Of a stretch of DNA of 64,000 nt, positions 11,452 to 34,767 are shown piece by piece; within the stretch, counting starts at the first letter, position 1; each line of letters starts with the position of its first letter. The position numbers and the translations under genes were made by a program. Source of the stretch: Streptomyces sp. NBC_00569 (GTDB lineage: Bacteria > Actinomycetota > Actinomycetes > Streptomycetales > Streptomycetaceae); assembly GCF_036345255.1 (NCBI RefSeq), contig NZ_CP107783.1, positions 3,707,501 through 3,771,500 on the forward strand, in the 5' to 3' direction. The notes under the pieces are model-generated. The model saw nothing but the letters and a program-made list of their open reading frames with translations. It made no database searches and was not told the origin of the DNA.

Positions 11452-11508
11452 GATGGTCGGAATCCCCTCCATTGTCGGAAACTTGTGGAGCTCTCTGCGC
11501 GGCCGGAC

Positions 11509-12693: not shown

Positions 12694-13494
12694 TCACCGT
12701 GAAAGGTTGCGCAACCGTGATGAGGCGGCAGGAGTGCAGTATGCGGACGTGGGAACCGGCTGAGCGGACAATTCGCTCCCGTGACTCCCCTCGGCAGTGG
12801 GTCCGGAATGTGACACCGTGACCGATGTGGCGACAATGCCCCGCGTGATGCGCCAACTGCCCGTGAAACAGGGGGTAATGGCGCTTTGTCCCGGAAGCTG
12901 CGATGCGGGCGGAGCGGGCACCCGGACGCGGACGTCGAAGGCCGCGTCCCGGGGCCGGAGGCGGAGCCGGGCGTCGGTGAAGTCGAGCCAGGTGCCCATG
13001 AGGGGGAACCACGCCTTGAACACACTCTCCTTGGCGGAGAAGAGGAGGGTGTCCCAGTGGACCCGTGGACGCGTGCGCGCGAGACGGGCCAGCGCCGCGC
13101 GCTCGACCGGGTCGGCGACCAGATCGAGGACGCCCGCCGGCAGCGGCTCGTGCGGTTCCGCGTCGATCCCGAGGGAGAGCAGGCGCGTACGGGAGGCGAC
13201 TGCGGCCGCGCGGTAGCCGTGGCAGTGGGTCATGCTCCCCACCACCCCGCCCGGCCAGCGCGGCGCCCGGTCCGCGCCCGGCACCAGCGGCAGCGGGCGG
13301 ATCCCGAGCGCGCCGAGGGCGCGCCGGGCGCAGTGGCGCACCTCGCCGAACTCCCGGCGCCGCGACGCGGCCACGCCCGCGACATACGCGCGCTCCTCGG
13401 GAAACAGGACCGCGCCCGCCGCCTCCCCGAAGGCGCCCGCCACCGCGACGAAGGCGGGCAGAACATCCCGGACGGGCCCGTCGTCCCAGGTCAT
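12694..13494 (-). CDS. 4'-phosphopantetheinyl transferase (EntD/Npt type)
   Basis: 266 residues. It transfers the phosphopantetheine arm of CoA to the serine of carrier proteins and would activate the five T/ACP domains of this cluster. Visible motifs are SMTHCHGYRAA (about 87-97), the magnesium site GIDAEP (Asp 111, Glu 113) and the catalytic SAKESVFKAW (Lys 155, Glu 156). The usual ending (TGSWRITRGIVATSV, about 211-225) is followed here by roughly 40 extra residues rich in Ser, Pro and Thr, as if the ordinary stop had been lost. Its start overlaps the stop of the T-C gene (ATGA). It is the last gene of the biosynthetic operon. Confidence 0.9.
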   Translation of the reverse strand: MTWDDGPVRDVLPAFVAVAGAFGEAAGAVLFPEERAYVAGVAASRRREFGEVRHCARRALGALGIRPLPLVPGADRAPRWPGGVVGSMTHCHGYRAAAVASRTRLLSLGIDAEPHEPLPAGVLDLVADPVERAALARLARTRPRVHWDTLLFSAKESVFKAWFPLMGTWLDFTDARLRLRPRDAAFDVRVRVPAPPASQLPGQSAITPCFTGSWRITRGIVATSVTVSHSGPTAEGSHGSELSAQPVPTSAYCTPAASSRLRNLSR

Positions 13495-15062
13495 GACCAG
13501 GGCAGTCGCGCGGCCGCCTCCTCGTCGGTGACCAGGGCGTGGATCGCGGCGAGCAGGCCCTCGACGAGCCGGCCCGGCAGCTCCTCGCCGAAGCGGTGCA
13601 CGTCCGCGGTGACGTGCACGCTCAGTCCGCCGCCCTCGGGGTCGTCGAGGGCCTCGATCCGCACCGGCAGGCTCGTGTGGTCGCGCATGTCCTCGTCGGC
13701 GGCCAGGAGGCCGGCGGCGAGGAGCTCGTCGCGCGGGTGGAAGTGGACATAGTTGAAGGTCACTTCGAACGGGTTACGGCCGAGCAGCCGGCGCAGCTCC
13801 GAGTGCGGGAAGCGGCGGTGCGGCAGCAGGGCGTTCTCCGCGTCGAGGGCACGGCGGGCCGCGGTGCGCCAGTCGGCGTCCCGCAGGTCGAGGCGCATGG
13901 GCAGCTGGTTGAGGAACAGACCGAGGGTGACGTCCGCACCCGTGCGCTCCGGCCGCCCGTTGAGGAGAAGGCCGACGGCCGGGGTCTCGGTCTCCCAGGC
14001 GGCGCCCACCGCCACGCAGTTGGCGGCGAGCAGCAGGCTCTTGACCGGCAGCCCCCAGCGCGCGGACATCTCACCGAGACGCCGGGCGTCCTCGGCGGGC
14101 ACGTCGGCGCTCGCCTTGCGGTGCTCGGGCTCCGCCGAGGACGCCTCCCGCTGCGGCGGCAACTCCGCCTGGAGGTCACGGAAGTGCCGTACGGACTGCT
14201 CGTCGCGCACCGCCTCACGCTCCAGGCGCACGAATTCCGCGTACGGGACGGGGTCGGCGAACTCGGGCCGGGTGCCGTCGAGAAGGGCCGCGTAGGCGAC
14301 GACCAGCTCGTTGAAGAAGACCGACTCGCTCCAGCCGTCCAGGATCGCGTGGTGGAAGGAGTAGGAGAGCCGGAACGAGCCGGGTGCCTTGGCGGCGGCG
14401 TGGACGCGCAGCAGCGGGGCGCTCTCCGCGTCGTAGGGCTCGGCGAGCTCCGTCATCACCCGCTCGTACGCCTCCGTGGCCGCCGCCCCGGTCAGGTGCC
14501 CGTGGTCCGCGACGACCAGCGGGATCGGCGCCTCCTTCTGCACGAGCTGCATCGGCTCGCTGAAGGTGCCCAGGTCGAAGCGGGTGCGCAGGAGGGGGTG
14601 CCGGGCGGACAGCAGGTCGAGGGCCGCGCGCAGGGCCACCGGGTCGAGGGGGCGCAGGACCGTGCGGGAGATGACGTCGAGGTAGAAGGCGCCGTCACTG
14701 ACCAGGCTCTCGTAGATCAGGCCGAGCTGGAGCCTGGCCGCCGGGTAGGCGTCCTCGGCGTCGGCGGGCACCCGGGCCCGGTCCAGGACGGAGAGCTGGT
14801 CGAGGGCACCGTGTGCCGGGCGGTCCGTGGCCCGGGTCAGGGACCGGCACGCGCCGCGCGGCGTCGGGTTCTTGAACAGGTCGAGGAGGGAGAGGGACAG
14901 GCCCTGCTCCTGGGCGGCGCCGATGACCTTCAGGGCCAGCAGCGAGTCCCCGCCGAGGGAGAAGAAGTCGTCGTCGGGACCGACCTCGCCGACGCCGAGG
15001 ATCTCCTTCCAGATGTCCGCGAGCAGGACCTCGGGCGCCACGGTCGTCGTGCTGTCGTTCAC
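13491..15062 (-). CDS. NRPS didomain: carrier protein-condensation (T-C), no adenylation domain
   Basis: 523 residues from GTG 15062, chosen because GGAG lies 7 bases upstream; ATG 15074 is the alternative. A carrier domain fills about 10-75, with the phosphopantetheine Ser in LGGDSLLAL (Ser 40). A condensation domain follows from about 105 with the intact catalytic motif SFHHAILDGWS (His 237-238, Asp 242). There is no adenylation domain, so its carrier must be charged in trans, by one of the two A-T proteins, or via the ATP-grasp enzyme encoded just upstream. A C-terminal C domain could form the last amide or ester bond or release the chain. The stop overlaps the start of the transferase gene. 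Confidence 0.88.
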   Translation of the reverse strand: MNDSTTTVAPEVLLADIWKEILGVGEVGPDDDFFSLGGDSLLALKVIGAAQEQGLSLSLLDLFKNPTPRGACRSLTRATDRPAHGALDQLSVLDRARVPADAEDAYPAARLQLGLIYESLVSDGAFYLDVISRTVLRPLDPVALRAALDLLSARHPLLRTRFDLGTFSEPMQLVQKEAPIPLVVADHGHLTGAAATEAYERVMTELAEPYDAESAPLLRVHAAAKAPGSFRLSYSFHHAILDGWSESVFFNELVVAYAALLDGTRPEFADPVPYAEFVRLEREAVRDEQSVRHFRDLQAELPPQREASSAEPEHRKASADVPAEDARRLGEMSARWGLPVKSLLLAANCVAVGAAWETETPAVGLLLNGRPERTGADVTLGLFLNQLPMRLDLRDADWRTAARRALDAENALLPHRRFPHSELRRLLGRNPFEVTFNYVHFHPRDELLAAGLLAADEDMRDHTSLPVRIEALDDPEGGGLSVHVTADVHRFGEELPGRLVEGLLAAIHALVTDEEAAARLPWS

Positions 15063-15093
15063 GGGTTTCTCCATTCGCTGTGCTGGGGCGTGG

Positions 15094-16398
15094 TCACAGG
15101 GCGCCCAGTTCCGCGCCGGTGACCTCGGTCGTCGTGGGGCGGGTGTCCGGGGTGTCGTCGTCGCCTTCGAAGGCGAAGCGGTAGCGCAGCGTCGACTCGA
15201 TGTCCTTGGCGAGCACCGCGAGTTCGGCCAGGTCGCGGGCCTCCCCCATCACGATGTCGAGTTCCAGGGTCTGCACCCCGCCGGGGAAGCGGGTGCCGGG
15301 CCTGGCGTAGGGGCGGTGCAGGGTGACGCCCGGAATCCGCTTGACCTCGTCGCTGCCGTCGATGCCGAGGAGCGTGCCGGGGCGGCGGGGTGCGGGGTGG
15401 AAGAGCTGGAAGCAGGCGCGGCCGGTGTAGAGGGCCGGCAGCTGCGGGTGCTCGCCGAGGGCGGTGCGGCCGGCGAGTTCGATGAGGTCGAGGCCCTGGG
15501 AGCGGACGGACAGCTCGTTGATGCCGCCCCCCAGCCGGCCGTTGACCTCGATGAGCCGGGGCCCGTCGGGGGTCAGTTTGATCTCGGTGTGGGTGAGGCC
15601 CTCTCGGATCCCGAGCGCCTCGACGGAGCGCCGCGCCAGGTCCCGCGCCAGGTGCTCCTCCGCCGGTTCCAGGGGCGAGGGCCAGAAGCGGCCGGTCTCC
15701 CGGAAGGGCGGCACCATGGGGAACTTGCCGGTCACGGCGATGTCGAGGACCGTGCCGTCGCGTACGACGCTCTCGACCGACACGTAGTCGCCGAACGCTC
15801 CGGTGTCCCGGCCCGGCAGGTACTCCTCGAGGACCAGAGTGCCGCCGGCGACGAGTCCGGGCCGGTCCTCGGCGAGGAGGGTACGGGCGAGCGCCAGGCC
15901 CTCCCCGGCGTCCTCCACGAAGAACGTGTTGCGGCTGCCGCCGCCGTGCGCGGGTTTGAGGACGGCGGGCAGGCCCGTCTCGGCGACCGCGTCCGCCCAG
16001 TCCTCGACGCTGTCGATGCGGCGGCACCGCACCGCGTCGACCCCGGCGGCCCGCAGCGCGTCCCGCTGCTGCCACTTGTCGGTCAGCAGGCCGACGGTGC
16101 GCCGGCCGTGGAACGGCAGCCCGAGCGCCTCGGCCAGCTCGCCCGTGTACGCCAGTGCCCGCTCGCTGTACGTGACGATGCCCTCGGGCTCGTACGCCCG
16201 CACCTTCGCGGCGGCCTGGGCCGGGGACCCGGCCGTCACGACGGGCCCGAACCCGGCGAGCAGGGGCTCCATGGCCCGGGTGTGGTCGTCGGGGGCCGTG
16301 ACGAAGACGCAGCGGGCCCAGTCGGCGAGGCCGACGGCGATGTCGCCGGGGTGGGCCGCGCCGTCCGCGTACACCACGATGAGGGTCTTGCGCATCAT
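15094..16398 (-). CDS. ATP-grasp domain ligase of the biosynthetic cluster
   Basis: 434 residues. ATP-grasp enzymes form amide bonds through acyl phosphates. Seen here are the preATP-grasp domain (residues 1-100, MMRKTLIVVYADG), the lysine strand VLKPAHGGGSRNTFF, the glutamate of the hinge LVLEEYLPGRDTG and the magnesium site PRLIEVNGRLGGG. This arrangement matches stand-alone amino-acid or peptide ligases seen in antibiotic pathways (DdaF/BacD-like). Substrate cannot be read. The start ATG 16398 overlaps the thioesterase stop (ATGATG) and follows GGAGG by 4-5 bases. The long frame upstream of it to 16623 is antisense noise over the thioesterase gene. It could link an amino acid to the carrier-made unit. 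Confidence 0.85.
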   Translation of the reverse strand: MMRKTLIVVYADGAAHPGDIAVGLADWARCVFVTAPDDHTRAMEPLLAGFGPVVTAGSPAQAAAKVRAYEPEGIVTYSERALAYTGELAEALGLPFHGRRTVGLLTDKWQQRDALRAAGVDAVRCRRIDSVEDWADAVAETGLPAVLKPAHGGGSRNTFFVEDAGEGLALARTLLAEDRPGLVAGGTLVLEEYLPGRDTGAFGDYVSVESVVRDGTVLDIAVTGKFPMVPPFRETGRFWPSPLEPAEEHLARDLARRSVEALGIREGLTHTEIKLTPDGPRLIEVNGRLGGGINELSVRSQGLDLIELAGRTALGEHPQLPALYTGRACFQLFHPAPRRPGTLLGIDGSDEVKRIPGVTLHRPYARPGTRFPGGVQTLELDIVMGEARDLAELAVLAKDIESTLRYRFAFEGDDDTPDTRPTTTEVTGAELGAL

Positions 16399-17198
16399 GC
16401 CTCCTGTCCGTGGCGCGGGCCGGCCGCCGGTACCCGGTCGGCGGCAGGGCGCAGGCAGTCCCTGACCGTCCGGCAGAAGTCGTCGGTGCGGTCCCGGTAG
16501 TAGAAGTGGCCGCCGGGCAGCAGCCGGCCGGTGAACGCGCCGGTCGTCCACGCCTGCCAGGCGTCCAGGTAGGCGCGGGCGACCCACGGGTCGTCCGCTC
16601 CCCCCGTGGCGAGCAGCGGGCACGCCACCGGCCTGCGGGGGCCGGGAGCGTAGCGGGCCAGCAGGAGGTAGTCGGCGCGCAGGACCGGGATCATCAGGTC
16701 GACGATGTCGGCGAGCGCGCCCTCCCCGATGTCGGCGTTGCCGCCGGTGGCCAGCTCCGTCAGCCAGTCGTCCCGGGTCATCGCGAGCACGGCGGCCGGG
16801 TCGAGGCGCTGGAGGTCCGGGGGCCTGGCCGCCGAGACGGCGAGGAGTTCGAGGTCGCGGCCCGCGGTCTCCAGGCGGTGGGCGATCTCGTACGAGAGCA
16901 CGGCGCCCAGGCTGTGGCCGACCAGCACGAGGGGCCCCTCCGTGTGGGCGTCGATCTCGCGGGCGGCCTGGGCGGCGAGTTCCGTGAGGAGTTCGGCCGG
17001 CGGTTCGCCGGCCCTGGGGCCGCGGCCGGGGTACTGGAGGGCGAGCGCGCTCTCGCCGTCAGCCAGGAGCCCGGGCAGCCATTCCGCGAGGGCGTAGGCG
17101 CTGCCGCCGCCGAAGGGGGCGAGGACGAACGTCCGCGCCGGGGACGGCGAGTCCTCCCCGAACTGCCAGAGGAGCGGGGTGAGCCGACGGCGCTTCAT
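16395..17198 (-). CDS. Type II thioesterase (Ser nucleophile)
   Basis: 267 residues, alpha/beta fold. The N-terminal APFGGGSAYALAEW and QYPGRG motifs are typical of external thioesterases of NRPS/PKS clusters. The nucleophile is Ser 96 in GHSLGA, the acid lies in TGGADDPWV and the His in PGGHFYYRD. It would clear mis-loaded acyl or aminoacyl groups from carrier proteins. Its ATG overlaps the stop of the small MbtH-like frame by ACATGA, and its own stop overlaps the ATP-grasp start, so translation is coupled on both sides. Confidence 0.9.
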   Translation of the reverse strand: MKRRRLTPLLWQFGEDSPSPARTFVLAPFGGGSAYALAEWLPGLLADGESALALQYPGRGPRAGEPPAELLTELAAQAAREIDAHTEGPLVLVGHSLGAVLSYEIAHRLETAGRDLELLAVSAARPPDLQRLDPAAVLAMTRDDWLTELATGGNADIGEGALADIVDLMIPVLRADYLLLARYAPGPRRPVACPLLATGGADDPWVARAYLDAWQAWTTGAFTGRLLPGGHFYYRDRTDDFCRTVRDCLRPAADRVPAAGPRHGQEA

Positions 17199-17275
17199 GT
17201 CGCCTCGCCCGGGGTGCGGTGCGTCGGCCGGAGGGAGTGGGATCCCTCCTCGTCGACCACGACGGCATGGGTCAT
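17195..17275 (-). CDS. 26-residue MbtH-like remnant, coupled to the thioesterase gene
   Basis: A short frame starts at ATG 17275 with GGAAGGGTGA about 7 bases upstream and ends in TGA overlapping the thioesterase ATG. Residues 5-16 (VVVDEEGSHSLR) followed by a Pro and, a few residues later, a Pro-Gly pair match the core of MbtH proteins, whose signature runs N-x-E-x-Q-x-S-x-W-P-x5-P-x-G-W. Here the Trp of WP is Arg and the protein stops where the second half (Trp, Leu, WTDxRP) should follow. I read it as a truncated MbtH, perhaps kept as a leader for coupling. A full MbtH has about 65-75 residues. The match is short, so chance is not excluded. Confidence 0.5.
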   Translation of the reverse strand: MTHAVVVDEEGSHSLRPTHRTPGEAT

Positions 17276-17312
17276 GGGGCGGTCACCCTTCCTGGGGTGG
17301 TGGCGGTGGTGG

Positions 17313-19166
17313 TCACAGCTCGACGACGGCCGGTGCGGGCGCCGTGTCCGTCGCGCCGGTGCCGTCGAGTTCCGCGGCGAGCGCCGCGATCGTCGCGTGC
17401 GCGTACAGCTGCGCGATCACGAGCTTCGGGTGGTGCTTGCGCAGGCGCGCGAAGACGGTCAGCGCCTTGAAGGAGTCGCCGCCGATCTCCAGGAACCGCT
17501 CGTTACGGCCGAGCGCGTCACGGCCCAGCGCCTGCGCCCAGATGTCCGCGATCAGCTGCTCGGTGCCGGGCCGCGGCGGCTCGGCGGGCGCGCCGTCCGT
17601 GGAGGTGCGGGCGGCGGCTTCCACGGCGGCCCGCAGCGCGGTGAAGTCGGCCTTGCCGTTGAGGTTCACGGGGATGGCGGGCACCACGTGGAGCCGGCTG
17701 GGGACGAGCGCGGCGGACAGGGTGGCGCGCAGCTCCCGGGTCAGCTCCCTCGGGTCCGCCTCGCCCACTAGGTACGCGACGAGCTCCAACGGGGCTTCGG
17801 GGGCGGGCCGTTCACCCGTCACGACGGCCTGCCGGACGCCGGGCAGCGCGAGCAGCGCGCTCTCCACCTCGCCGGGCTCGACGCGGTTGCCCCTGACCTT
17901 GAGCTGCCGGTCGGCGCGCCCCAGGTAGTCGAGGACACCGCCGGGCTCCCTGACGACGAGGTCGTCGGTGCAGTAGAAGACTCCTCCCTGCGGTCCGTCC
18001 GGCGCCACGAACTTGGCCGCGGTGAGCTCGGGCTCGCCCAGGTAGCCGGCGGCCGCGCAGGCACCGCCGAGGTACAGGATCCCCGGGGTGCCGTCGGGCA
18101 CGGCGCGGCCGTCCGCGCCGAGCACCCGGGCGCGGACCCCGGCGAGCGGGGTGCCCACGGGGACGCGGGCCCGCCCGCCGTCGGTGAGGTCCACGCGGTG
18201 CGTGGTGGCGAGGATGGTGGCCTCCGAGGGCCCGTAGCCGTTGTGGACCTCCAGGTCGGGCCGTACGCGCAGGACCGCTTCCGCGAGCCGGGGCGGGAAC
18301 GCCTCCCCCGCGACCACGAGCACCCGCTCGGGCAGCAGCGCCGCGAGGTCCCCCTCGGCACCGAGGGCCTCCAGTTGCGACGGCGTGTAGGTGAGGCAGT
18401 CCGCGGGGTGCGCCTTGAGGTCGGCGGCGAGCGCGGCCGGGTCGAGCGTGGTGTCGCGCGGGTACACGTCGAGGCGGGCGCCGGACAGGAGCGCCCCGTA
18501 CACCGACACCTTGCCGAGGTCGGCGGCGAACGTCGTGGCGAGGCCGAAGCTGTCGAGGGCGTCGGGGGTGATCCGCTCCCAGAACGCGTCGCAGTAGTTC
18601 AGGAGGGCGCTGTGCTGGACGACGACCGCCTTCGGCGTGCCCGTCGAGCCCGAGGTGCACACCAGGTAGGCGACGTCGGCGGGGTCCAGGTCCGGGCCGA
18701 TCTCGTACGGGGCGCCCTGCGCCGCGTCGGGAACGGTGCGGGAGGGGCGCCCGTGCGGGTCCCGCACGCGTGGCGCGTTGCGTTCGTCGGTGACGACGGC
18801 GCGGGCTCCGGTCGTCGCGAGGAGCGTGGCGACGCGCGGGTCCGGGTCGGTGGCCTCCAGGTGGACGTAGGCGGCGCCGACGGCCCATGCGCCGAGGACG
18901 GCGGCCATGCAGCGGGGCGAGCGGTCCATGAGCGTGGCCACGACGTCGCCCCGCCCGACGCCCTGTTCCCGCAGCCAGCGGGCCACGCCGCCCGCCGACC
19001 GGGCCAACTCCTCGTAGGTGTACGTCGCATCGCCCTGGCGGAGCGCGGGGCACGCGCCGCTGCGGGCGGCGATGCCGAGGAATCGGTGAGCCGCCGTGCC
19101 GGACAATGTCCGCGGTGCGGTCTCGGGCGCCATGGCGGGTTCCTCCCTGAGCAGTTCTGCGGTCAT
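17313..19166 (-). CDS. NRPS adenylation-carrier didomain (A-T), unusual specificity pocket
   Basis: 617 residues. It activates an acid with ATP and loads it on its own carrier domain. Motifs: YLVCTSGSTGTPK (about 167-179), NGYGPSEATI (309-318), YCTDDLV, GRADRQLKVRGNRVEPGEVE, catalytic Lys 505 in NLNGKADF, and carrier IGGDSFKAL with Ser 565. In the pocket the sequence FAADLGKVSVYGALL replaces the usual FDxS pattern, so the Asp that holds the alpha-amino group is displaced or absent. The substrate may therefore not be an ordinary alpha-amino acid; I cannot predict it. The start overlaps the ACP stop (ATGA) and has GGGAGG 8 bases upstream. An MbtH-like remnant lies just downstream. Confidence 0.88.
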   Translation of the reverse strand: MTAELLREEPAMAPETAPRTLSGTAAHRFLGIAARSGACPALRQGDATYTYEELARSAGGVARWLREQGVGRGDVVATLMDRSPRCMAAVLGAWAVGAAYVHLEATDPDPRVATLLATTGARAVVTDERNAPRVRDPHGRPSRTVPDAAQGAPYEIGPDLDPADVAYLVCTSGSTGTPKAVVVQHSALLNYCDAFWERITPDALDSFGLATTFAADLGKVSVYGALLSGARLDVYPRDTTLDPAALAADLKAHPADCLTYTPSQLEALGAEGDLAALLPERVLVVAGEAFPPRLAEAVLRVRPDLEVHNGYGPSEATILATTHRVDLTDGGRARVPVGTPLAGVRARVLGADGRAVPDGTPGILYLGGACAAAGYLGEPELTAAKFVAPDGPQGGVFYCTDDLVVREPGGVLDYLGRADRQLKVRGNRVEPGEVESALLALPGVRQAVVTGERPAPEAPLELVAYLVGEADPRELTRELRATLSAALVPSRLHVVPAIPVNLNGKADFTALRAAVEAAARTSTDGAPAEPPRPGTEQLIADIWAQALGRDALGRNERFLEIGGDSFKALTVFARLRKHHPKLVIAQLYAHATIAALAAELDGTGATDTAPAPAVVEL

Positions 19167-19468
19167 GACCGGCCTCCCGTGGGGCCGGTCGCGATCATCC
19201 GGGCGAGGCCGTCCACGGTCTCGGTGGCGAGGTAGGCGCGCAGGTTCAGCCGGACCCCGAACGCGTCCTCGACGGCGGTGAGCAGGCGCAGGGCGGCGAG
19301 GCTGCTCCAGTTGTCGAGCTCGTCGAACCGGGAGGCGCCGGTGAGGGTTCCCGCGGGGGCGTCGGTGACGGCCGAGATGACCCGCACCAGTTCGTCCGTG
19401 CGAGGGGCGTCGGCCGTGGCGGGGGTGTCGGTGGCGGCGGTGGTCGGGTCGGTCATCGCGTGCGTCAT
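19163..19468 (-). CDS. Discrete acyl carrier protein next to FkbH
   Basis: 101 residues starting at ATG 19468, which overlaps the FkbH stop (GGATGA); ATG 19456 is also possible. The carrier motif is LDNWSSLAALRLL: the Ser before Leu would bear phosphopantetheine, in the place of the usual DSL. The next helix (VEDAFGVRLNLRAYLATETVDGLARMI) is typical for ACPs of FkbH systems, which start with FDELDNWSSL-like sequence. It is the probable acceptor of the glyceryl group. A Thr/Ala-rich N-terminus precedes the fold. Confidence 0.85.
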   Translation of the reverse strand: MTHAMTDPTTAATDTPATADAPRTDELVRVISAVTDAPAGTLTGASRFDELDNWSSLAALRLLTAVEDAFGVRLNLRAYLATETVDGLARMIATGPTGGRS

Positions 19469-21357: not shown

Positions 21358-21377
21358 AGCCAGCGTTTCCTTCCGGG

Positions 21378-21456
21378 TCGGTGATCTGCGTCGGTGATCT
21401 GAGTGGGGGTCCAGGCCGGGGTCCCAGGTCCAGGGGTCCAGGTCCGGTGGTCCAGG
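21378..21456. repeat. Short direct repeats between the KASIII-like and FkbH genes
   Basis: Two perfect copies of TCGGTGATCTG (21378 and 21391) are followed by four copies of GGTCCAGG (21408, 21427, 21435, 21449). They fill most of the 116-base gap, the longest internal gap but one in an otherwise tightly packed operon. Function unknown. Confidence 0.7.
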
Positions 21457-21473
21457 TCGGCGTTCCGTGCCGG

Positions 21474-22490: not shown

Positions 22491-22591
22491 CCGTCGTTCC
22501 TCCCGGGAGGCGGACCGGGGCCTGTCCGAAGACTCCGCTCGGGCGGCCCCGGTCCGGTGTGCGCGGTGAACTGCTGCTCGTACGGCGGGTG

Positions 22592-24082: not shown

Positions 24083-24159
24083 GGGATCGCTACTCCTAGC
24101 TGGATGGGCGGAAGTTCCTGTACGGGCCTGATCCCGTACCGGACGGATGGGGGGAGCGG

Positions 24160-27100: not shown

Positions 27101-29667
27101 AGCTGCTGTGCGGCCCAGATGGCGGTCTGCTGCCCGCACAGAGGGCCTTCCCGCACATCGCCGCCCCCGGCTCCCCGCGCCGTGCCTTCTTCCTGTCCGC
27201 CGGCCGGCCGGGGCGTCGCCGCCTGCGGGGCGGCCCCGGCCACGGCGTCCGCGAGGGAGCGCAGGTCCGGCAGGTCGAACAGGTCGAGGACCTCGAAGTC
27301 GGTGCCGAAGCGCTCGTTGATCCTGGCGACGAGCCGGGTGCCGTTCAGCGAGTTCCCGCCCGCGTCGAAGAAGTCGTCGTCCTCGCCGAGCCCCGGCTCC
27401 TTGAGGACGTCCCGGGCGAAGCCGAGCACGATGTCCGTGACACTGCCCCCGGCGGCCGTCTCCGGCTCGGCAGTCTCCGGCTCGGGTGCGTCCGGCGCGT
27501 CTTGGACCGCCGCCATGGCGGGCCAGCAGTGCTCCTCCGCCAGGGCCGCGACGGGCAGCGGTACGCGGCGCACCGGCGGCCGCCCGAGCGCGGCCCGCCA
27601 GTCCACGGTGTGCCCGTGTGCGAAGGCCAGGGCCAGGGCCTGTACGGGGGTGGTGGCGACGGCCGTGACGGGCTGGGCGGCGAGGAGCCCGGACAGGGCG
27701 CCGCCGGGTGCCAGGTCGACGACCAGGGGGTGCCCGGCGAGCCCGGACAGGGCGCCGCGCAGGGCCTCGGGGTTGGGCGGCGCGGACTCCGCGGGCGGAT
27801 CCCCGAGCGCGCCCAGTGCCGTGGCGAGGTCCGTCTCCCCCCGCAGTACGCGGGCCGCGTGGGCGCCGACGCCGTGGGCGAGTACGAGGGCGGGCGCGAG
27901 GCCGGCCCGCGCGAGCATCGCGTGCCCGCCGACCAGCCGCACCAGCGTGCGCTGCGCGGCGTTCCACTCGCCCGCGGGCAGCGCCCGCGCAGCCTCCTCG
28001 TGGACGTCGGCGAAGGCGGGGTGTCCGGCGGCGCAGGCGCGCAGGTCCTCGACCGTCGTGGCGACCGTGTCGCCGAGTGCCACGACGAGGGGCGGCGTCG
28101 TGCCGGGCACGGGCGCCTGGCCGGGCCCGTGAAGTACGGCGTCCAGACGGCCGAGGAGTTCGGTGGTGTCGCGCGCCGTCCACGCGTGCCGCAGCGGGAA
28201 GTGTTCGCGCGCCGCCGTGAGGACCTCGCCGGCCGCGGCCAGGTCGAAGCCGGTGACGTCGGCGGCGATCAGGTCACGCAGCCGGCGCACCTGGCGGTCG
28301 AGGCCCGACAGGTCGCGCGCGGAGAGCACGAAGGGGCGCTCGGCCTTCGTGTACGGGGGTGGCGGCGGGGCGGCCGGCCCCTCCTCGACGACCATGTGGG
28401 CGTTGGTGCCGCTGAGACCGAAGCTGCTGATGCCCGCGCGGCGGGGGCCACGGCCGGTGGGCCACGGCTCGGCGCCGGCGGCGATCCGCAGCATCTCCGC
28501 AGGCAGGGCGAGCAGTGGGTTCGCCTCGCGGAAGTGCGCGGTGGGGAAGATCTCGCCGGCCCTGAACTGGGCGATGACGCGCATCAGTCCGGCGAACGAG
28601 GCCATGGAGCCGAGGTGCCCGAGATTGCCCTTGACCGAGGACACGGGCCGTGCGCCGGTGGCGTCCCGCGCTGCGGCGAACGCTCCGGCGAGGCCCTGGA
28701 TCTCGATGGGGTCGCCGATCTTCGTGGCGGTGCCGTGCGCCTCGACGTAGCCGATGGTCGCGGGTTCGACGCCCGCGTCCTGCCAGGCGGCGGTGATGAC
28801 CTCGCTCTGCGCGGCGGGGCTGGGGGCGGTGAGGCCGGTGCTGCGTCCGGCGTCCTGGTTGACGGCGCTGCCGCGGACGACCGCGCAGATGGTGTCGCCG
28901 TCGCGCACGGCGTCCTCGTACCGCTTGACCAGGACGAATCCGCCGCCCTCCCCGTAGGTCGTGCCGTCGGCCGCGCTGTCGAAGGGACGGCAGCGGTCCT
29001 CCGCCGACAGGACGCCGAGGCCGTCCGTGCCAGTGGTGCGGCGCGGCAGCGGGCCGAGGACGAGTTCGAAGCCGCCGACGAGGGCGAGGTCGCACTCACC
29101 GCGCGCCAGCTTCCAGCGGGCCTCGTGCAGCGCGACGAGGAAGGACGAGCAGGACGTGTCGATGACCTCGGCGGGGCCGCGCAGGTCGAGGTGGTAGGCG
29201 ACCCGGCCCGCCGCGTACGCGTGCAGGCTGCCCGTCATCGCGGGCCCGGCGCCCTGCTGCCCGGCGGGCAGGAGGTTGTACAGGCTCGGATGCGGGGCGC
29301 CGTAGCCGGCCACGAGGACCGCCGTGTCGCTGCCCGCCAGCTCGCCGGGCGCGTATCCGGCCTCTCCGATCGCGCGCACGGCGAGTTGGAGCATGCGGCG
29401 CTGGCGCGGGTCGGTCAGCTCGGCGTCGGCCTTGGAGATGCCGAAGTAGCGGTGGTCGAAGCCGGTGACGTCGTCGATCCAGCCGCCTTCGCGGTCGCTC
29501 GCGGTGCGCACGACGCCGGTGGACTCCGCGCGCTTCTGCGGCAGCCCGCGCAACGTGTCGCGGCCCTCGCGCAGCAGCGCGGTCAGCGTGTCCCAGTCGG
29601 CGCACTGGGGGAATTCGAAAGCCGCGCCGACGACGGCGAGCGCCGCTCCCTCTTCGATCGTGCCCAT
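24160..29667 (-). CDS. Hybrid PKS-NRPS: KS, vestigial AT, T, C, T, epimerisation-like domain
   Basis: 1835 residues from ATG 29667. Domains: ketosynthase (about 8-430) with intact Cys 173 (DTSCSS), His 311 (EAHGT) and His 351 (GNLGH). A shrunken acyltransferase region (about 525-715) has AHGVGA where GHSxG should be, and lacks the middle of the fold. Carrier (Ser 773, GGNSL) and condensation domain (HHLFVDG, His 980-981) follow. A second carrier (Ser 1338, GGDSI) comes next. The last domain (about 1400-1835) is epimerisation-like: HHVVVDLYSW, RTVGYFN, but VGHGRE at 1660-1665 has Val where the catalytic Glu of epimerases lies. No adenylation domain is present, so both carriers must be charged in trans. 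Confidence 0.92.
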   Translation of the reverse strand: MGTIEEGAALAVVGAAFEFPQCADWDTLTALLREGRDTLRGLPQKRAESTGVVRTASDREGGWIDDVTGFDHRYFGISKADAELTDPRQRRMLQLAVRAIGEAGYAPGELAGSDTAVLVAGYGAPHPSLYNLLPAGQQGAGPAMTGSLHAYAAGRVAYHLDLRGPAEVIDTSCSSFLVALHEARWKLARGECDLALVGGFELVLGPLPRRTTGTDGLGVLSAEDRCRPFDSAADGTTYGEGGGFVLVKRYEDAVRDGDTICAVVRGSAVNQDAGRSTGLTAPSPAAQSEVITAAWQDAGVEPATIGYVEAHGTATKIGDPIEIQGLAGAFAAARDATGARPVSSVKGNLGHLGSMASFAGLMRVIAQFRAGEIFPTAHFREANPLLALPAEMLRIAAGAEPWPTGRGPRRAGISSFGLSGTNAHMVVEEGPAAPPPPPYTKAERPFVLSARDLSGLDRQVRRLRDLIAADVTGFDLAAAGEVLTAAREHFPLRHAWTARDTTELLGRLDAVLHGPGQAPVPGTTPPLVVALGDTVATTVEDLRACAAGHPAFADVHEEAARALPAGEWNAAQRTLVRLVGGHAMLARAGLAPALVLAHGVGAHAARVLRGETDLATALGALGDPPAESAPPNPEALRGALSGLAGHPLVVDLAPGGALSGLLAAQPVTAVATTPVQALALAFAHGHTVDWRAALGRPPVRRVPLPVAALAEEHCWPAMAAVQDAPDAPEPETAEPETAAGGSVTDIVLGFARDVLKEPGLGEDDDFFDAGGNSLNGTRLVARINERFGTDFEVLDLFDLPDLRSLADAVAGAAPQAATPRPAGGQEEGTARGAGGGDVREGPLCGQQTAIWAAQQLDPESGAYNVPAALLLDGEPDPRALAARLTTLVRRHPMLRAFVRDTPEGPVQCVAPADGAEAVLEHIESDLSDHTLSSGEGALLERLRALVAAPLSPYSRPAARHQLIRARFADGERHVLLLTYHHLFVDGWSWRLLFEDLAGTAPESPEPGRHYLDHVTEQRERLGQETGRTLEAFWSGYLSGSRPAPLPEDPADAAAPGAAVLELPVAPRLAERLRELARRERATSNMVFLAAWAALLWRITGETDVTVAVPAAGRAPADEPVVGNYANTLVLRVRVRPDEPFSALLAAVREASLATLAHQDLPTDRIRRTARPGSAEPLAATMFGFNSGVAPLRRIGPDGPAVELLDVGQGAPAFPVSVAVLEYGEETRAGVQYTPDRFRATTVEGWLDAYRSLLESVAEQGTGARTADLAGGPAPVRATDVTGAGEAGEAEETADEADGAGHVAPRTPVERELAALWAQFLKRDRVGATDDFFDLGGDSITAIAIASEAARRGLALRPRTVLELRTVAAAATRTTRAEPAPARPDHMAALAAADTPDENEPVELTPPQLEFLARGAARPDHWNHGVLYRARRPLDAAEVGRALRTLARRHPVLRARLREDEGLWRQSAGPEAPPVTEFDLRGADAGRIAETVDARATELHESLDLREGPVCRAGLFRLPAGLPDELVLVVHHVVVDLYSWNVLTEELSALLRDGDDRALAPAGPSYFHWARRLARHVAERPDDFDGSYWLDHTWGDGAQRATVPEGPRGVEGNTQELVTDLPVPDTAGQGVTLYERLLAALGAAFQDWLGVRGGEVAVQLVGHGREDLFSEGAPAGADAGVDLGRTVGYFNSTYPFALALPGRRAAADHTAYVARELRSVPQAGFGFEALRHHHPDPGARRALGAIEVPGVLFSFWGRPAFLDAGQAGDEEGVLTGVRTELVGRDRPFDMERPCPVEVYPSLTDGRLTVRWRFSGELFTAARIQDLANAFGAALGT

Positions 29668-29714
29668 GGGTCCTGCCCCCTGTGAGTGTGGAAGGTCGAG
29701 CGGTCCGGACGGAT

Positions 29715-30950
29715 TCAGGCGACGCGCACGTCGGGCTCGGCGCGGTTGGTGATGGCGCGGGCGTCGGGCAGCGCGAGGCACGCCAGGTTGGCCACGGCGA
29801 CGAGTGCCGCGGTGACGAGGAGCGGCGCGGCGGACCCGGTGAGGGCGGCGACCGGAGCGGCGACGGCGAGCCCGAGCGGTCTGGCCGCGAAGGACAGCAG
29901 GGCGTCGTACGAGTCGGCCCTGGCCAGCGCGTGCGGCGGGAAGTGGCGCTGCATGGTGGTCTGCCACAGCGTGTTGAGGACCCCGATGCCGAGCATGGCG
30001 ATCCCGTAGGCGACCGCGTTCACCCACACGGCCAGCGGCACCGCGAACGTGATCATGGGGAGGGCGAACAGCGCGCCGCACACCGACGTCACGACCAGGG
30101 GACGTGTGGCCTTCAGGCGCGGGGCGACGAACGCGCCCGCCAGCATGCCGGCCATACCCGCCTGGTAGACGACGACCCAGGAGATCTCTCCGCCGAGCCG
30201 CTCGATGGCGATGAGCGGTCCGAGCGTCATGAGCACCCCGGCCGCGAGGTTGGACACCCCGTGCCCGACGAGGTTGGTCCAGAACCAGGGGCGGCTGCGC
30301 ACCTCCTGCCAGCCTTCGGCGAGTTCCCTGAAGAACGTCGGGGTGTGCGCCTTCGCCTCCCTGGGCTCGGTCCGCAGGCCGCCCAGGGTGACGGCGCCGA
30401 CGCCGAAGACGATCGCGGTGAACACGAAGGCCCAGCCCGCGCCGACGGCGACGACCAGGACTCCCGCGATGCCGGGCCCCGCCACGAGGGCGAAGCCGCG
30501 GGCCACGCCGAGGTGGGCGTTGGCGCGCAGCCGCGCCTCCTGCGGAACGGTGGCGGCGACCAGCGGGGACATGGTCGGCGTACCGAAGGCGATGGCGGCG
30601 CCGGTGACGGCGGAGAGCACCGCGAGGTCCCCGATCCGCACGGCACCGAGCAACAGCTCGGCCCCGATGGCGAGTTGGGCGATGCCGCGCACCAGGTCGG
30701 CGGCGAACGCCACCCGCTGGGCGGGGAAGCGGTCGGCGAGCACGCCGCCGACGGGCAGCAGCACGAGCTGGGGCACGAGTTCGGCGGCCAGCACGATCCC
30801 CAGGTCGCCTGCGCTGCCCGTCGCCCTGATCACCGCGAGGGTGAGCGCCGTCGGCACGAGCGCCGTGGCCAGGAAGGACAGGGTGCGCCCGACGAGCAGG
30901 CGCCGGAAGCCGGGCACGCGGAACACGTCCACGTCATGCTGTGAACGCAT
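29715..30950 (-). CDS. MFS efflux transporter (EntS/MFS_3 type)
   Basis: 411 residues with about twelve hydrophobic helices, e.g. LVPTALTLAVIRATGSAGDLGIVLAAELVPQ, and the loop motif GGVLADRFPAQRV between helices 2 and 3 (MFS motif A, D-R). The family includes siderophore and antibiotic exporters. In this cluster it is the likely product exporter and self-protection gene. The start ATG 30950 lies inside the 3' end of the Cys-thioesterase gene (17-base overlap), and the megasynthase starts 48 bases after its stop. Confidence 0.88.
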   Translation of the reverse strand: MRSQHDVDVFRVPGFRRLLVGRTLSFLATALVPTALTLAVIRATGSAGDLGIVLAAELVPQLVLLPVGGVLADRFPAQRVAFAADLVRGIAQLAIGAELLLGAVRIGDLAVLSAVTGAAIAFGTPTMSPLVAATVPQEARLRANAHLGVARGFALVAGPGIAGVLVVAVGAGWAFVFTAIVFGVGAVTLGGLRTEPREAKAHTPTFFRELAEGWQEVRSRPWFWTNLVGHGVSNLAAGVLMTLGPLIAIERLGGEISWVVVYQAGMAGMLAGAFVAPRLKATRPLVVTSVCGALFALPMITFAVPLAVWVNAVAYGIAMLGIGVLNTLWQTTMQRHFPPHALARADSYDALLSFAARPLGLAVAAPVAALTGSAAPLLVTAALVAVANLACLALPDARAITNRAEPDVRVA

Positions 30951-31698
30951 CGGCCAGCCGTTCCATCAGAGCGTCGGGGGCCTTCAGGAAGTCGTAGTGC
31001 CCGCCGTCGAGTACGGGGAAGGCGACTCCGTCGGCGTACGCGTCCCAGCCCTTGAGCTCGTCGTGGGTGACCTCGGGGTCGTCGGACCAGTGCAGGACGG
31101 TGATGCCGAACGGCACCCGTACCGGTCGCTCCGTTCCGTACACCCGGTTGGCGCCGAGGTCCTCGCGCAGCACGGCGAGGCCGAGCTCGATGAGCGCGGG
31201 GTGGGCGGTGCCGCCGCGGGAGACCGCGAGGAACTCCAGCTCGGCCTTCAGTTCGTCGTCCGTCATGTCGAGGAAGCGGTCGTGCGGGCAGTCGTGCGGC
31301 GCGACCTGCGCCGACACGAACACCGTCTCGGGAAGGGGCAGTTCACGCGCGGCGAGCAGCCGCGCCGTCTCGAACGCCGGCAGCGATCCCGCGCAGTGCC
31401 CGAAGAACGCGAAGGGCCGGTCGAGGTAGGGCGTCAGAGCCTCGACGAGGTGCCCGGCGAGCTCCTCGTACGTGCCGTAGTGGGGCTCGCGCATCCGGTT
31501 CTCGCGGCCGGGCAGCTGGACCGCGCACACCTCGACGCCGTCGTCGGCGCCGAAGCGGGCGGGCCACGCGTTGAACATCGACGCGCCGACCCCGGAGTAG
31601 GGGAAGCAGAAGACGCGCGCCGCGGCGTCCTGCGACGGTTTCCTCAGCAGCCAGGGCGTGGTGGCCCTGACGCCGGCGGACACGGGATTCACAGACAT
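30934..31698 (-). CDS. Stand-alone thioesterase with Cys nucleophile
   Basis: 254 residues. The fold and motifs follow type II thioesterases (RVFCFPYSGVGAS, VQLPGRENR, and His 234 in DGGHYDF). The nucleophile elbow, however, is FFGHCAGS: Cys 102 replaces the usual Ser of GHSxG. Cys thioesterases are known in some NRPS release steps where a more reactive thioester is needed. It follows the P450 and the A-T gene, an order like nikkomycin-type beta-hydroxy amino acid cassettes where a thioesterase frees the hydroxylated amino acid from the carrier. That parallel is inference. The start ATG 31698 has GGTGGAG just upstream. Confidence 0.88.
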   Translation of the reverse strand: MSVNPVSAGVRATTPWLLRKPSQDAAARVFCFPYSGVGASMFNAWPARFGADDGVEVCAVQLPGRENRMREPHYGTYEELAGHLVEALTPYLDRPFAFFGHCAGSLPAFETARLLAARELPLPETVFVSAQVAPHDCPHDRFLDMTDDELKAELEFLAVSRGGTAHPALIELGLAVLREDLGANRVYGTERPVRVPFGITVLHWSDDPEVTHDELKGWDAYADGVAFPVLDGGHYDFLKAPDALMERLADAFTA

Positions 31699-31753
31699 AC
31701 TCCACCTGTCTCGGTGTGCTTCGGGGGCTTGAGGCGGCCGGTTCGCGCGGGCG

Positions 31754-32998
31754 TCAGCGCGGCGCGGTCACGACGGGAAGGCTGGTCATCCCGGCGATGA
31801 AGACCGACTTCAGGTGCTGCGGCGGCCCGGCGGGTTCGACGGACCGGAACCCGGCGAGGAACTCCTCGAAGAGGATCCGGAAGGTGACGCGGGCGAGTGT
31901 GGCGCCCAGGCAGTAGTGCGGGCCGTGCCCGAAGGCGATGTGCCGGTTGTCGGCACGCAGCACGTCGAACCGGTACGGGTCGGTGAACACGCTCTCGTCA
32001 CGGTTGGCCGAGCCGATCCACACGGCGACGGCCTCGCCCGCGGGCACCCGCCCCCCGCTGAGTTCGGTGTCCTCGACCGCGTACCGCAGGAAACTGCTCG
32101 CGGGGGACGTCCAGCGCAGCCCCTCCTCCACCAGGCCGGGGATCAGCGCGGTGTCGTCGGCGACCTTGCGCAGCTGGTCCTCGTGCTCGGAGAGGGCGAG
32201 CAGCGTGCCCGAGACGGTGTGCGGTGTCGTGGCGTTGGCCCCCAGCAGGAGGCTGTAGCAGTTGTAGATGACCTCCGCGTCGCTCAGCTTCGCGCCGCCG
32301 GCGTCCATGGTCATCAGATGGCCGACGAGGTTCTCGCCCGGTCCTTCGGTGCGGCGCGTGCGCAGCGTCTGCGCGAAGTACTCGAAGAGCTGGTGGTGCG
32401 CGATGGCCAGCGTCGCCGCCCCGCTGGTGCCGACGCGGAAGGTCTCGTCCTCCGGCGCCGCCGCCATCGCGGTCCACCGCACGAGGTCGTCCCAGTCGGA
32501 CTCCGGTACGCCCATCAGCGCGCCGGCCACGGTCATCGGCAGGTCGTAGGCGCGCCTCGCCACGTCCCAGACGCCGCCGTCGCGGGCGGGGGCGAGGAAG
32601 TGGGTGACGGCCTGCCGGATCCTGCCCTCCCAGTCGGCGAGCGCGCGGGCGGTGAGCTTCCCGTTGAGGGGGCGGCGCAGTTCGCCGTGGCGCGGCGGGT
32701 CGGTGGAGACCAGCATCTGGCCGGCGGAGGTGTCGTCGTGGCCGAGCTGGGTGAGGATGCTGCCGCGTTCGGAGGTGAAGGCACGGTGGTCGCCGAGGAC
32801 GCGACAGGCGTCCGCGTAACGGGTGACCGAGGTGAACGCGCGTCCGTCGGGCAGCACTCGGCGGTGCAGCGGCGCGTCGGTCCGCATGCGCGCCCACACG
32901 GCATGGAGGTCACCGTCCGCGTGGAACCCGGGATCGAAGAGATCGGCCTTCGCGAGGTCCGCGGCCGGGACGGGAACGCATCCGGCGGTGATCCTCAC
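31754..32998 (-). CDS. Cytochrome P450 monooxygenase of the cluster
   Basis: 414 residues from GTG 32998, overlapping the A-T stop (GTGA). Heme-binding loop FGHGPHYCLGATLAR (Cys 363), ExxR motif EGLR (292-295) and the PERF-like stretch are clear. In the I helix the motif is GANATTPH, with Ala where most P450s have Asp or Glu before Thr. Translational coupling to a valine-type A-T didomain and a thioesterase suggests that it hydroxylates the carrier-bound amino acid, as NovI- and NikQ-type enzymes do. Ferredoxin and reductase are not encoded nearby. Substrate assignment is inferred. Confidence 0.9.
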   Translation of the reverse strand: MRITAGCVPVPAADLAKADLFDPGFHADGDLHAVWARMRTDAPLHRRVLPDGRAFTSVTRYADACRVLGDHRAFTSERGSILTQLGHDDTSAGQMLVSTDPPRHGELRRPLNGKLTARALADWEGRIRQAVTHFLAPARDGGVWDVARRAYDLPMTVAGALMGVPESDWDDLVRWTAMAAAPEDETFRVGTSGAATLAIAHHQLFEYFAQTLRTRRTEGPGENLVGHLMTMDAGGAKLSDAEVIYNCYSLLLGANATTPHTVSGTLLALSEHEDQLRKVADDTALIPGLVEEGLRWTSPASSFLRYAVEDTELSGGRVPAGEAVAVWIGSANRDESVFTDPYRFDVLRADNRHIAFGHGPHYCLGATLARVTFRILFEEFLAGFRSVEPAGPPQHLKSVFIAGMTSLPVVTAPR

Positions 32999-34767
32999 GC
33001 GGCGTCCCGCGCCTTCTCGACGGCCGCGGCGAGGCCCGCCGGGGTCGGGTCGAGGTAGAAGGCGACGGGGGATATCTCCACGCCGTACTCGCGCTGGAGG
33101 TCCGCCGTGATGCGGACGCCGATCAGGGAGTGGCCGCCGAGTTCGAAGAAGTCGTCGTCGGCGCCGACGCCGTCGATGCCGAGGTGGTCGCTCCACAGAC
33201 GGGCGACGGCCGTCTGGGTCCCGGACGCCGGTTCCCTGTACGCCGCCGCGAGTTCGGGCCTGCCGGGCGACCGCTCGGCGGTGAGCGCGGGGCGGTCGAC
33301 CTTCCCGTTCGCCGTCAGGGGCAGCGCGTCGACGATCCGGACCCGGGACGGGATCGTGTACTCCGGCAGCACGTCGGCGAGGCGCCTGCGCAGGTCGAGG
33401 GTGGACAGCTCCTCGCCGGGACGGCCCGTGACGAACGCGACGAGGCTCTTGCCGCCGGCCGGCTGCGGCTGGGCCACGACGGCCGCCTCGGCCACACCGG
33501 GCAGGGTCGCGAGGGCGGACTCCACCTCGCCGGGTTCGATGCGGAAGCCGCGGATCTTCACCTGCTGGTCGGCGCGCCCGTGGTACTCGAGGACGCCGTC
33601 GGGGCGCCTGCGCACCAGGTCGCCGGTGCGGTACATCCGGGCGCCCGGCCGGGTCGCGTACGGGTCGGGCAGGAAGCGCTCGGCGGTCAGCTCCGGACTG
33701 CCGAGGTAGCCGTGGGCCAGTCCCTCGCCCGTCGCGAAGAGCTCGCCGGTCTCCCCGTCGGGGACGGGACGCAGATCGGCGTCGAGTACGTGGACGCCGG
33801 TTCCGCGGATCGGCCGGCCGATCGGCACGGCTCCCGTCACGGGCCCGGTGATGGTGTGGCAGCAGGTGAAGGTGGTGTTCTCGGTGGGGCCGTAGCCGTT
33901 GATGAGTGTGGTGCCGGGCAGTGCGGCGACGGCGCGGTTCACGTGGGGCGGCGACAGGACGTCCCCGCCGGCGAGCAGGACGCGCAGCCCGCGCAGGTCG
34001 TCGAGACCGGACTCGACGACCTGCTGGAAGAGGCCGGCGGTCAGCCAGAGCACGGTCGCGCCCGAGTGCTGTACCAGCTTGGTGAGTTCGCTGACGGACA
34101 GGTCGCGGTCGGGGGCGAGGTCCAGGCGCGCGCCGTTGAGGAGCGGCGCCCAGATCTCCAGGGTGGACGCGTCGAAGGCCATCGGCGCGTACTGCAGGAA
34201 CACGTCGTCCTCGGTGGTGGCGAGGAAGTCGGCGCCGAGCACGAGGCGCGACACGGCGCGGTGCGGGACGCAGACGCCCTTCGGCGCGCCGGTCGACCCC
34301 GAGGTGTAGGCGAGGTAGGCGGAGTCGGCGGGGGTCACCCCGGGGTCGGCGGGTACCCGCGCGGGCAGGTCCGCTTCGAGCGGCAGGGCCGTGCACCCGG
34401 GAGGCAACTCCCCGGACGCGCCGGGCGCGGTGAGGACGAACGGGGCGCCCGCGTCCTCGAGGATCAGCCGGCGCCGCTCCGGCGGATAGCGGCGTTCGAG
34501 CGCGAGATAGGCGGCGCCCGCCTTGAGGACGCCGAGCAGTCCCACGACGGCGGCGACGGAGCGCCCGGCGTCCAGGGCGACGACGTCGCCGACGATCACC
34601 CCGAGGTCCTGGAGATGCCGGGCGAGACGGTCGGAGCGGTCGTCCAGTTCGCCGTAGGTCAGTTCCCCGTCGTCACCGCGGACCGCGGTCCTGTCGGGCG
34701 TCAGGCGGGCCTGCCGGGCGAAGGCCGCCCCGATCGGCAGGGGGTGCGAAGGGTACGGCGCGTCCAC
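32995..34767 (-). CDS. NRPS adenylation-carrier didomain (A-T), valine-type code
   Basis: 590 residues from GTG 34767, which has GGAGG 7 bases upstream; GTG 34878 would add 37 low-complexity residues. Motifs: AYTSGSTGAPKG, NGYGPTENTTF, MYRTGDLV, GRADQQVKIRGFRIEPGEVE, Lys 489 in LTANGKVDR, and carrier LGGHSLIGV with Ser 547. Aligned by eye to GrsA, the ten pocket residues read DALWLGGTFK (Asp 199, Ala 200, Leu 203, Trp 241, Leu 265, Gly 267, Gly 291, Thr 299, Phe 300, Lys). This differs by one residue from the well-known valine code DALWIGGTFK. It is the first gene of the operon; P450 and thioesterase follow. Confidence 0.9.
   Translation of the reverse strand: MDAPYPSHPLPIGAAFARQARLTPDRTAVRGDDGELTYGELDDRSDRLARHLQDLGVIVGDVVALDAGRSVAAVVGLLGVLKAGAAYLALERRYPPERRRLILEDAGAPFVLTAPGASGELPPGCTALPLEADLPARVPADPGVTPADSAYLAYTSGSTGAPKGVCVPHRAVSRLVLGADFLATTEDDVFLQYAPMAFDASTLEIWAPLLNGARLDLAPDRDLSVSELTKLVQHSGATVLWLTAGLFQQVVESGLDDLRGLRVLLAGGDVLSPPHVNRAVAALPGTTLINGYGPTENTTFTCCHTITGPVTGAVPIGRPIRGTGVHVLDADLRPVPDGETGELFATGEGLAHGYLGSPELTAERFLPDPYATRPGARMYRTGDLVRRRPDGVLEYHGRADQQVKIRGFRIEPGEVESALATLPGVAEAAVVAQPQPAGGKSLVAFVTGRPGEELSTLDLRRRLADVLPEYTIPSRVRIVDALPLTANGKVDRPALTAERSPGRPELAAAYREPASGTQTAVARLWSDHLGIDGVGADDDFFELGGHSLIGVRITADLQREYGVEISPVAFYLDPTPAGLAAAVEKARDAA

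Follow-up and report, generated by a model that had tools for sequence, protein, structure and literature searches.

Introduction

How a carrier domain without an adenylation domain of its own receives its substrate is the question raised by a gene cluster in Streptomyces sp. NBC_00569. The cluster lies at positions 12694-34767 of the stretch of 64,000 nucleotides analysed here (the window; contig NZ_CP107783.1, positions 3,707,501 to 3,771,500), and the host genome is a single contig of 10,324,489 bases. It encodes a hybrid of non-ribosomal peptide synthetase (NRPS) and polyketide synthase (PKS) that ends in a condensation (C) domain, a thiolation (T) domain named T2 that lacks an adenylation (A) domain, and an epimerisation-type (E) domain. 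Beside this megasynthase stand genes for an FkbH protein, a discrete acyl carrier protein (ACP) and a KASIII-fold protein, KAS3. A preliminary description of the DNA regarded these three as the core that joins glyceryl-ACP to a beta-ketoacyl thioester in tetronates. Comparison with related clusters points to another function: with a little better than an even chance, KAS3 would move glyceryl from the ACP to T2, and glycerate would replace an amino acid in a hybrid peptide-polyketide line.

The FkbH-ACP-KAS3 cassette

FkbH scored 296 bits against TIGR01686 (cut-off 147) and was the sole match in the host genome (E 0.001). It was 37% identical to FkbH from a spirotetronate-type operon and 55% to a Micromonospora FkbH, and the discrete ACP adjoins it, as seen with Pfam and in the translation. 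Loading of glyceryl onto an ACP is established for the FkbH family, and judged by sequence the two proteins resemble a usual pair for glyceryl-ACP formation. This supports the preliminary description in its reading as a peptide-polyketide hybrid with a glyceryl-ACP pair and in the FkbH and ACP part of its tetronate core; the KASIII part was not supported.

Against the KASIII structure 5by7, KAS3 scored 25 bits and the spirotetronate-type KASIII of locus L112 430 bits. By BLAST, KAS3 had 26% local identity (32 bits) to the spirotetronate-type KASIII, and it was placed outside the tetronate KASIII group in a tree. Its active site consists of a Cys and a His-x4-Asp pattern (C111, H295, D300), as in acyltransferase-type KASIIIs, and both its predicted fold and its sequence group with DpsC, ChlB3 and CerJ, the nearest solved structures. 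The likeness to the acyltransferase-type KASIIIs (DpsC, ChlB3, CerJ, NatS) lies in the fold and in the His-x4-Asp, which was aligned with those of ChlB3 and DpsC; identity is only 23-28%. The absence of 5by7 from the 50 rows of this comparison was given no weight. The candidate assignment of KAS3 as a tetronate KASIII was rejected on the basis of PDB scores, BLAST, tree and active-site pattern. As judged from these comparisons, KAS3 is an acyltransferase-type KASIII, and the cassette is a glyceryl-ACP system with an acyltransferase-type KASIII, not a tetronate core.

In classical tetronate logic, KAS3 would join glyceryl-ACP to a KS-made beta-ketoacyl thioester through a C-C and a C-O bond and release a 3-acyl tetronate. 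FkbH, ACP and a KASIII-fold gene are indeed adjacent as in tetronate operons, and the catalytic motifs of the ketosynthase (KS) domain are present. We nevertheless consider this decidedly improbable, as KAS3 falls outside the tetronate group by all four measures, co-occurs with the loss of an A domain (see below), and no 2-oxoacid-dehydrogenase-type acyltransferase of the Agg4 kind was found among the Pfam matches of the 14 genes. The Agg4-type acyltransferase serves formation of the exocyclic methylene and is not present in every tetronate pathway. Among the same Pfam matches there were likewise no transketolase or E2 enzymes for the formation of glycolyl-ACP, FkbH being found in their place.

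The megasynthase

No A domain was detected in the megasynthase by Pfam, NCBIfam or the domain map, which agree with the preliminary description on this point. The acyltransferase (AT) remnant behind the KS has the motif AHGxG in 7 of 12 family members, the other five being unreadable with the search pattern, and no acyltransferase match was obtained in the Pfam scan of the megasynthase. The C-terminal domain has the fold and the motifs of an NRPS epimerisation domain; its reading as a second condensation domain, after the Pfam label, was ruled out on motifs and fold. At the Glu position of EGHGRE, which we take to be the catalytic residue of epimerisation domains, Val was found in 7 and Gly in 3 of the 10 aligned members (window included), with Glu in PvdL.

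Mutual exclusion of cassette and A domain in related clusters

In a scan for ATP-grasp relatives with one genome per species, the best 80 of 210 relative loci were taken. FkbH, ACP, KAS3, the M28 peptidase, the stand-alone A-T protein AT1, the ATP-grasp ligase and the T-C protein occurred together in six of these 80 loci, with 47-80% identity, namely in S. rhizoryzae, Streptomyces NRRL F-4489, Nocardia suismassiliense, N. colli, N. ninae and Amycolatopsis NBRC 101858. Longer stretches of these relatives also show the other side of the cluster, consisting of the second A-T protein AT2, a cytochrome P450, the thioesterase TE2 and a major facilitator superfamily (MFS) exporter, and T-C is the final gene common to the window and its relatives. 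The nearest ATP-grasp protein in 149 other Streptomyces genomes was only 50% identical, and therefore the cluster is rare in that sample. The cluster is real, rare and conserved.

Four sister clusters (S. olivaceoviridis, S. canus, Streptosporangium KLBMP 9127 and Actinomadura 6K520) contain AT1, a KS-x-T-C protein, ATP-grasp, T-C and AT2-P450-TE2-MFS, with the thioesterase TE1 in three and M28 in two of the four. FkbH, ACP and KAS3 were not found within the stretches examined; a KAS3 orthologue was absent genome-wide from all four sister genomes (6 of the 25 genomes searched had one), the genome-wide search having been made for KAS3 and not for FkbH. In the sister clusters, a distinct protein is composed of a C-like N-terminal piece followed by A, T and E, so that an A domain precedes the last T; presumably the T domain equivalent to T2 receives an amino acid from this ordinary A domain. 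In three of them, this protein is followed by a gene of MbtH size (59 aa), and a gene of the serine hydroxymethyltransferase family is present in three, the S. canus gene at that place being unscanned. The Actinomadura 6K520 locus (L104) has additional pieces, T-C and A-T-E, as well as a second P450 (44%), which suggests a longer product.

An A domain before the last T was lacking in all seven cassette clusters and present in all four mapped cassette-free clusters. The Nocardia clusters, with a partial domain map, were counted as A-less because their span of 5.5-6.0 kb leaves no room for an A domain. Excluded from the count were NBRC 110611 (L021/L103), with AT1 and KS plus AT remnant only and no T-C/T-E continuation on the contig end, and S. 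sp. S3 (L028), which was seen by tblastn only and is S. canus-like. In this family, the FkbH/ACP/KAS3 cassette and the A domain before the last T exclude each other.

The two stand-alone A-T proteins offer another route to a loaded T2, as loading by A domains in trans is known: AT1 or AT2 would charge T2, and glyceryl-ACP would be used elsewhere, e.g. as starter or extender. AT1 and AT2 are, however, shared by the sister clusters, where the last T is served by an A domain of its own and the two proteins therefore have other roles; loading of T2 by AT1 or AT2 is regarded as quite unlikely.

KAS3 and FkbH in other genomes

Among 394 genomes of the class, 8 (the host's included) have strong KAS3 relatives at E 1e-60; in the genus of Micromonospora rubida these occur in 14 of 151 genomes (E 1e-90), from which 15 short loci were examined. 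FkbH (54-55%) directly adjoins KAS3 in L130, L131 and L134 (KAS3 57-61%) and in L143 (51%). Only the other flank is visible in L129, L132 and L133, with a weak FkbH-like piece; the adjoining gene in L136-L142 (KAS3 50-53%) was read by eye as E1-type, and L135 has neither an FkbH nor an E1-type gene beside KAS3 in its short locus. Transketolase-type genes stand beside KAS3 homologues (47-61%) in L122, L123, L136-L142, L144, L146 and L148, with transketolase and E2 domains confirmed by Pfam for L122 and L144 and read by eye elsewhere. L122, L123 and L136-L142, with KAS3 homologues, E1/E2 genes and, where called, an ACP, are candidate naphthyridinomycin-like glycolyl loci.

L144, L146 and L148 (genomes G617, G680 and G692) share an operon of a thioesterase, an NRPS of the order C-x-T-C-x-T-E, MFS, ACP, an FkbH-like protein, KAS3, FkbH, ACP, an E1-type pair and E2; the FkbH-like protein of L144 has no HAD match. 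C, T and E domains were recognised in this NRPS (about 2,200 aa), with A domains lacking, by Pfam in L144 and L148 and by the domain map in all three operons; two weakly similar stretches of about 330-370 aa without domain assignment occupy the expected places of A domains. These synthetases seem to run on hydroxyacyl-ACP units alone. Two A-less C-T units were found in L122, and L145, with broken gene calls, was left out of the tally of A-less modules.

In 150 Streptomyces genomes, FkbH matched 26 at E 1e-100 or better, own included. The matches other than its own were divided into two genomes at 53-54% and the remainder at no more than 43%. It was forecast beforehand that an acyltransferase-type KASIII and an A-less T would be present in the 53-54% loci and lacking from those at or below 43%. 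Five loci were inspected, from both 53-54% genomes (G047, G005) and from 3 of the 23 other genomes (G124, G085, G103). G047 fits the forecast fully: C-A-T-KS is followed by AT-T-C-T-reductase, in which the second T has no A domain, and KAS3, FkbH and ACP lie downstream. The control G103 has no KAS3, as forecast.

Other results of this test weigh against transfer of glyceryl to T2. G005 has the motif and the ACP, but its NRPS is C-A-T-TE and an A-less T was not seen; its KASIII is 26% like KAS3, with Ser at the KAS3 Cys position (alignment by eye). Two of the three controls (G124, G085) do have KAS3, contrary to the forecast, and in G085, with KAS3, FkbH and ACP, the domain map of the 20 kb seen contains no NRPS. 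The outcome was mixed. KAS3-FkbH pairs are more widespread than A-less NRPSs, and the acceptor may differ between clusters. To the same side belong the L123 and L147 KAS3 loci, without an A-less T in the stretch seen, and L124-L127, where KAS3 homologues stand beside AMP-ligase genes with no FkbH in view; distant KAS3 relatives (37-42%) adjoin AMP-ligase genes in loci read by eye as phenazine-type or amidase-type. Nor would an E-type domain be expected behind a T2 that carries glyceryl, although this one has lost its Glu. Finally, the swap in the family of the window may have been a single evolutionary event, and the clusters are therefore not independent cases.

In L124 and L125, the KAS3 homologue and the AMP-ligase gene lie within the phenazine-type loci (by eye). 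The G085 locus (L160) has an oxidoreductase, a tRNA-synthetase-family protein and an ATP-grasp-like protein beside KAS3-FkbH-ACP.

The G085 locus fits a role of KAS3 as a tailoring O- or N-acyltransferase, which would place glyceryl on a peptide hydroxyl (e.g. of beta-hydroxyvaline) or amine, with T2 loaded otherwise. ChlB3, DpsC and CerJ, the closest solved relatives, are consistent with this role, and some of them act on hydroxyls. Left unexplained are the presence or absence of the A domain in the seven and four clusters counted above and the modules without A domains that neighbour KAS3 in Micromonospora and G047, and the tailoring role appears unlikely. In G124, a stand-alone C gene adjoins KAS3, FkbH and ACP, as might be expected if a C domain took glyceryl directly from the discrete ACP and KAS3 were only an editing or transfer helper; T2 would then be roleless despite its GGDS site, and this is considered highly improbable.

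Amino acid supply and accessory proteins

The AT2 pocket code DALWLAGTFK was identical in 9 of 11 AT2 rows, with one substitution in each of the other two. We take it to be a valine-like specificity code, from which AT2 is predicted to activate a valine-like substrate. AT2 and P450 remain neighbours in the cluster relatives and also in loci of the wider ATP-grasp set, L039 and L080 among them, and the P450 would beta-hydroxylate T-bound valine on AT2. The AT1 code was matched to no substrate; AT1 stands directly upstream of the KS protein in the sister clusters. That AT1 might activate something other than an amino acid was considered and dropped, D235 being present in the alignment.

TE1 and TE2, considered as candidates for the Agg5-type alpha/beta hydrolase of tetronate operons, are thioesterase-family alpha/beta hydrolases (Pfam). 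TE2 has Cys at the nucleophile position (GHCAG or GHCGG) in 11 of 12 family members, the twelfth being a fragment. Cys thioesterases are known for strained-ring products, and because of this link and the Cys nucleophile, formation of a beta-lactone from beta-hydroxyvaline by TE2 is possible. The best PDB match of the ATP-grasp protein was BacD (83 bits), and M28 is 66-81% identical in the cluster relatives that have it. A-T/P450/thioesterase supply of beta-hydroxy amino acids together with an ATP-grasp ligase is the logic of nikkomycin-type pathways, which the window resembles in AT2-P450-TE2 and ATP-grasp and from which it differs in the valine-like code and the hybrid megasynthase setting.

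Proposed pathway

In the pathway favoured here, FkbH would load glyceryl from 1,3-bisphosphoglycerate onto the discrete ACP, and KAS3 would accept it on Cys111 and pass it to T2 of the megasynthase. AT1 would load an amino acid and transfer it to the KS; there it may be extended by one malonate via a trans acyltransferase, invoked because the built-in AT looks dead. The C domain would join the chain and glyceryl-T2, probably as an ester. AT2 and P450 would provide T-bound beta-hydroxyvaline, TE2, T-C and ATP-grasp would serve its release and its attachment, or that of a different amino acid, at the amino end, and M28, if exported in accordance with its signal peptide, may trim the amino end extracellularly.

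A tetronate ring could still arise via the C-domain ester and Dieckmann closure. A wider, rather doubtful proposal is that of one line in two forms, in one of which a portable FkbH-ACP-KASIII cassette took the place of the A domain; ester formation by the C domain and Dieckmann closure would turn a tetramate-type into a tetronate-type line, if the T1 chain is beta-ketoacyl, and the Micromonospora operons without A domains would represent complete NRPS lines fed by hydroxyacyl cassettes alone. If true, ester formation and Dieckmann closure would be a second, convergent route to tetronates.

Organisation of the cluster

The features are listed in Table 1. ORF listing, codon-based gene calling and Pfam/NCBIfam placed 14 genes in 12694-34767, all on the minus strand and with a widest gap of 116 bp. 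The elements named in the preliminary description, on one strand and near-gapless, were all confirmed in this way; its operon stands, its count of 15 frames does not. Codon-based gene calling gave 13 of the 14 genes, the frame of the 4'-phosphopantetheinyl transferase (PPTase) was taken from the ORF listing, and gene starts were script-chosen.

Table 1. Positions of genes and megasynthase domains in and next to the cluster (window coordinates).
Feature	Positions	Strand	Basis and remarks
SARP/AfsR-type regulator	35270..38176	-	Trans_reg_C, BTAD, NB-ARC, TPR (Pfam); just outside the cluster, upstream
AT2, stand-alone A-T	32995..34767	-	Pfam
Cytochrome P450	31754..32998	-	Pfam; paired with AT2
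TE2, thioesterase, GHCAG	30934..31692	-	Pfam
MFS exporter	29715..30932	-	Pfam and NCBIfam
Megasynthase, 1835 aa, KS - AT remnant - T1 - C - T2 - E	24160..29667	-	Pfam, NCBIfam, domain map
KS domain	28378..29667	-	Cys-His-His motifs DTSCSS, EAHGTA, NLGH all present
AT remnant	27508..28140	-	AHGVG in place of GHSxG
T2, carrier domain without A domain, GGDS motif	25528..25767	-	Translation; proposed glyceryl acceptor
E-type domain	24163..25470	-	HHxxxD kept; Val replaces Glu of EGHGRE
M28 metallopeptidase with PA domain	22592..24082	-	Pfam; signal peptide by eye
KAS3, KASIII-fold, acyltransferase-type, C111/H295/D300	21474..22490	-	PDB comparison, active-site alignment, tree
FkbH, glyceryl transferase/phosphatase	19465..21357	-	TIGR01686 and HAD-IIIC
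Discrete ACP	19163..19456	-	Pfam; NWSSL phosphopantetheine site by eye
AT1, stand-alone A-T	17313..19166	-	Pfam; code DLVTLVGILK
TE1, thioesterase, GHSLG	16395..17198	-	Pfam
ATP-grasp ligase, L-amino-acid-ligase type	15094..16395	-	Pfam/NCBIfam
T-C didomain protein	13491..15062	-	Pfam; genes shared with relatives end here
PPTase	12694..13494	-	Pfam

In S. rhizoryzae and NRRL F-4489, relatives of the SARP-type protein (65-68% identical) lie ahead of the corresponding genes, and the protein is a probable pathway regulator. An oligopeptide ABC transporter (Opp) set and an M1 peptidase (6132-12507 and 4642-6036) lie directly downstream on the same strand. These genes and the PPTase were rejected as conserved cluster members: within the stretches searched, no match to the PPTase, the transporter or the M1 peptidase was found beside the clusters of the relatives, except Opp-like genes (33-52%) near a cluster relative in L025. 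The window also encodes three L,D-transpeptidases with Ig-like domains (45902-46903, 57182-58384 and 58569-59732).

Comparison with known systems and implications

The earlier statement that no known product is recognised for this gene set holds, as a characterised match was not found; the literature search was limited, and absence from print is not claimed. Resormycin, malonomycin, nikkomycin and others were weighed as the product, and none was confirmed. With the glycerate-utilisation operon of tetronates (abyA1-A5; mad7, 8, 16, 17, 18) the cluster shares FkbH, a discrete ACP and an adjoining KASIII-fold protein; it differs in that its KASIII comes from another branch, in the lack of an Agg4-like gene and in an NRPS/PKS chain ending C-T-E.

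For the naphthyridinomycin NRPS, a transketolase-based glycolyl supply has been proposed (PMC5384830). The cassette of the window seems to work like this supply, with FkbH replacing the transketolase. In both, an alpha-hydroxyacyl unit on a discrete ACP would feed an NRPS. A T domain without its own A domain beside an alpha-hydroxyacyl-ACP system, which is our own criterion for this family, is present in the window. The window differs in the use of glyceryl via FkbH and not of transketolase-derived glycolyl, and the two were likened without comparing naphthyridinomycin sequences.

FkbH-ACP-KASIII triads are thus not readable as tetronate genes by neighbourhood alone, and the branch of the KASIII needs checking. 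If the proposed transfer to T2 is true, a KASIII-fold protein that charges a carrier domain with glycerate would offer a portable substitute for adenylation domains. The exchange of cassette and A domain between sister clusters has apparently been done by nature already, and swaps of an amide for an ester or tetronate link would become testable.

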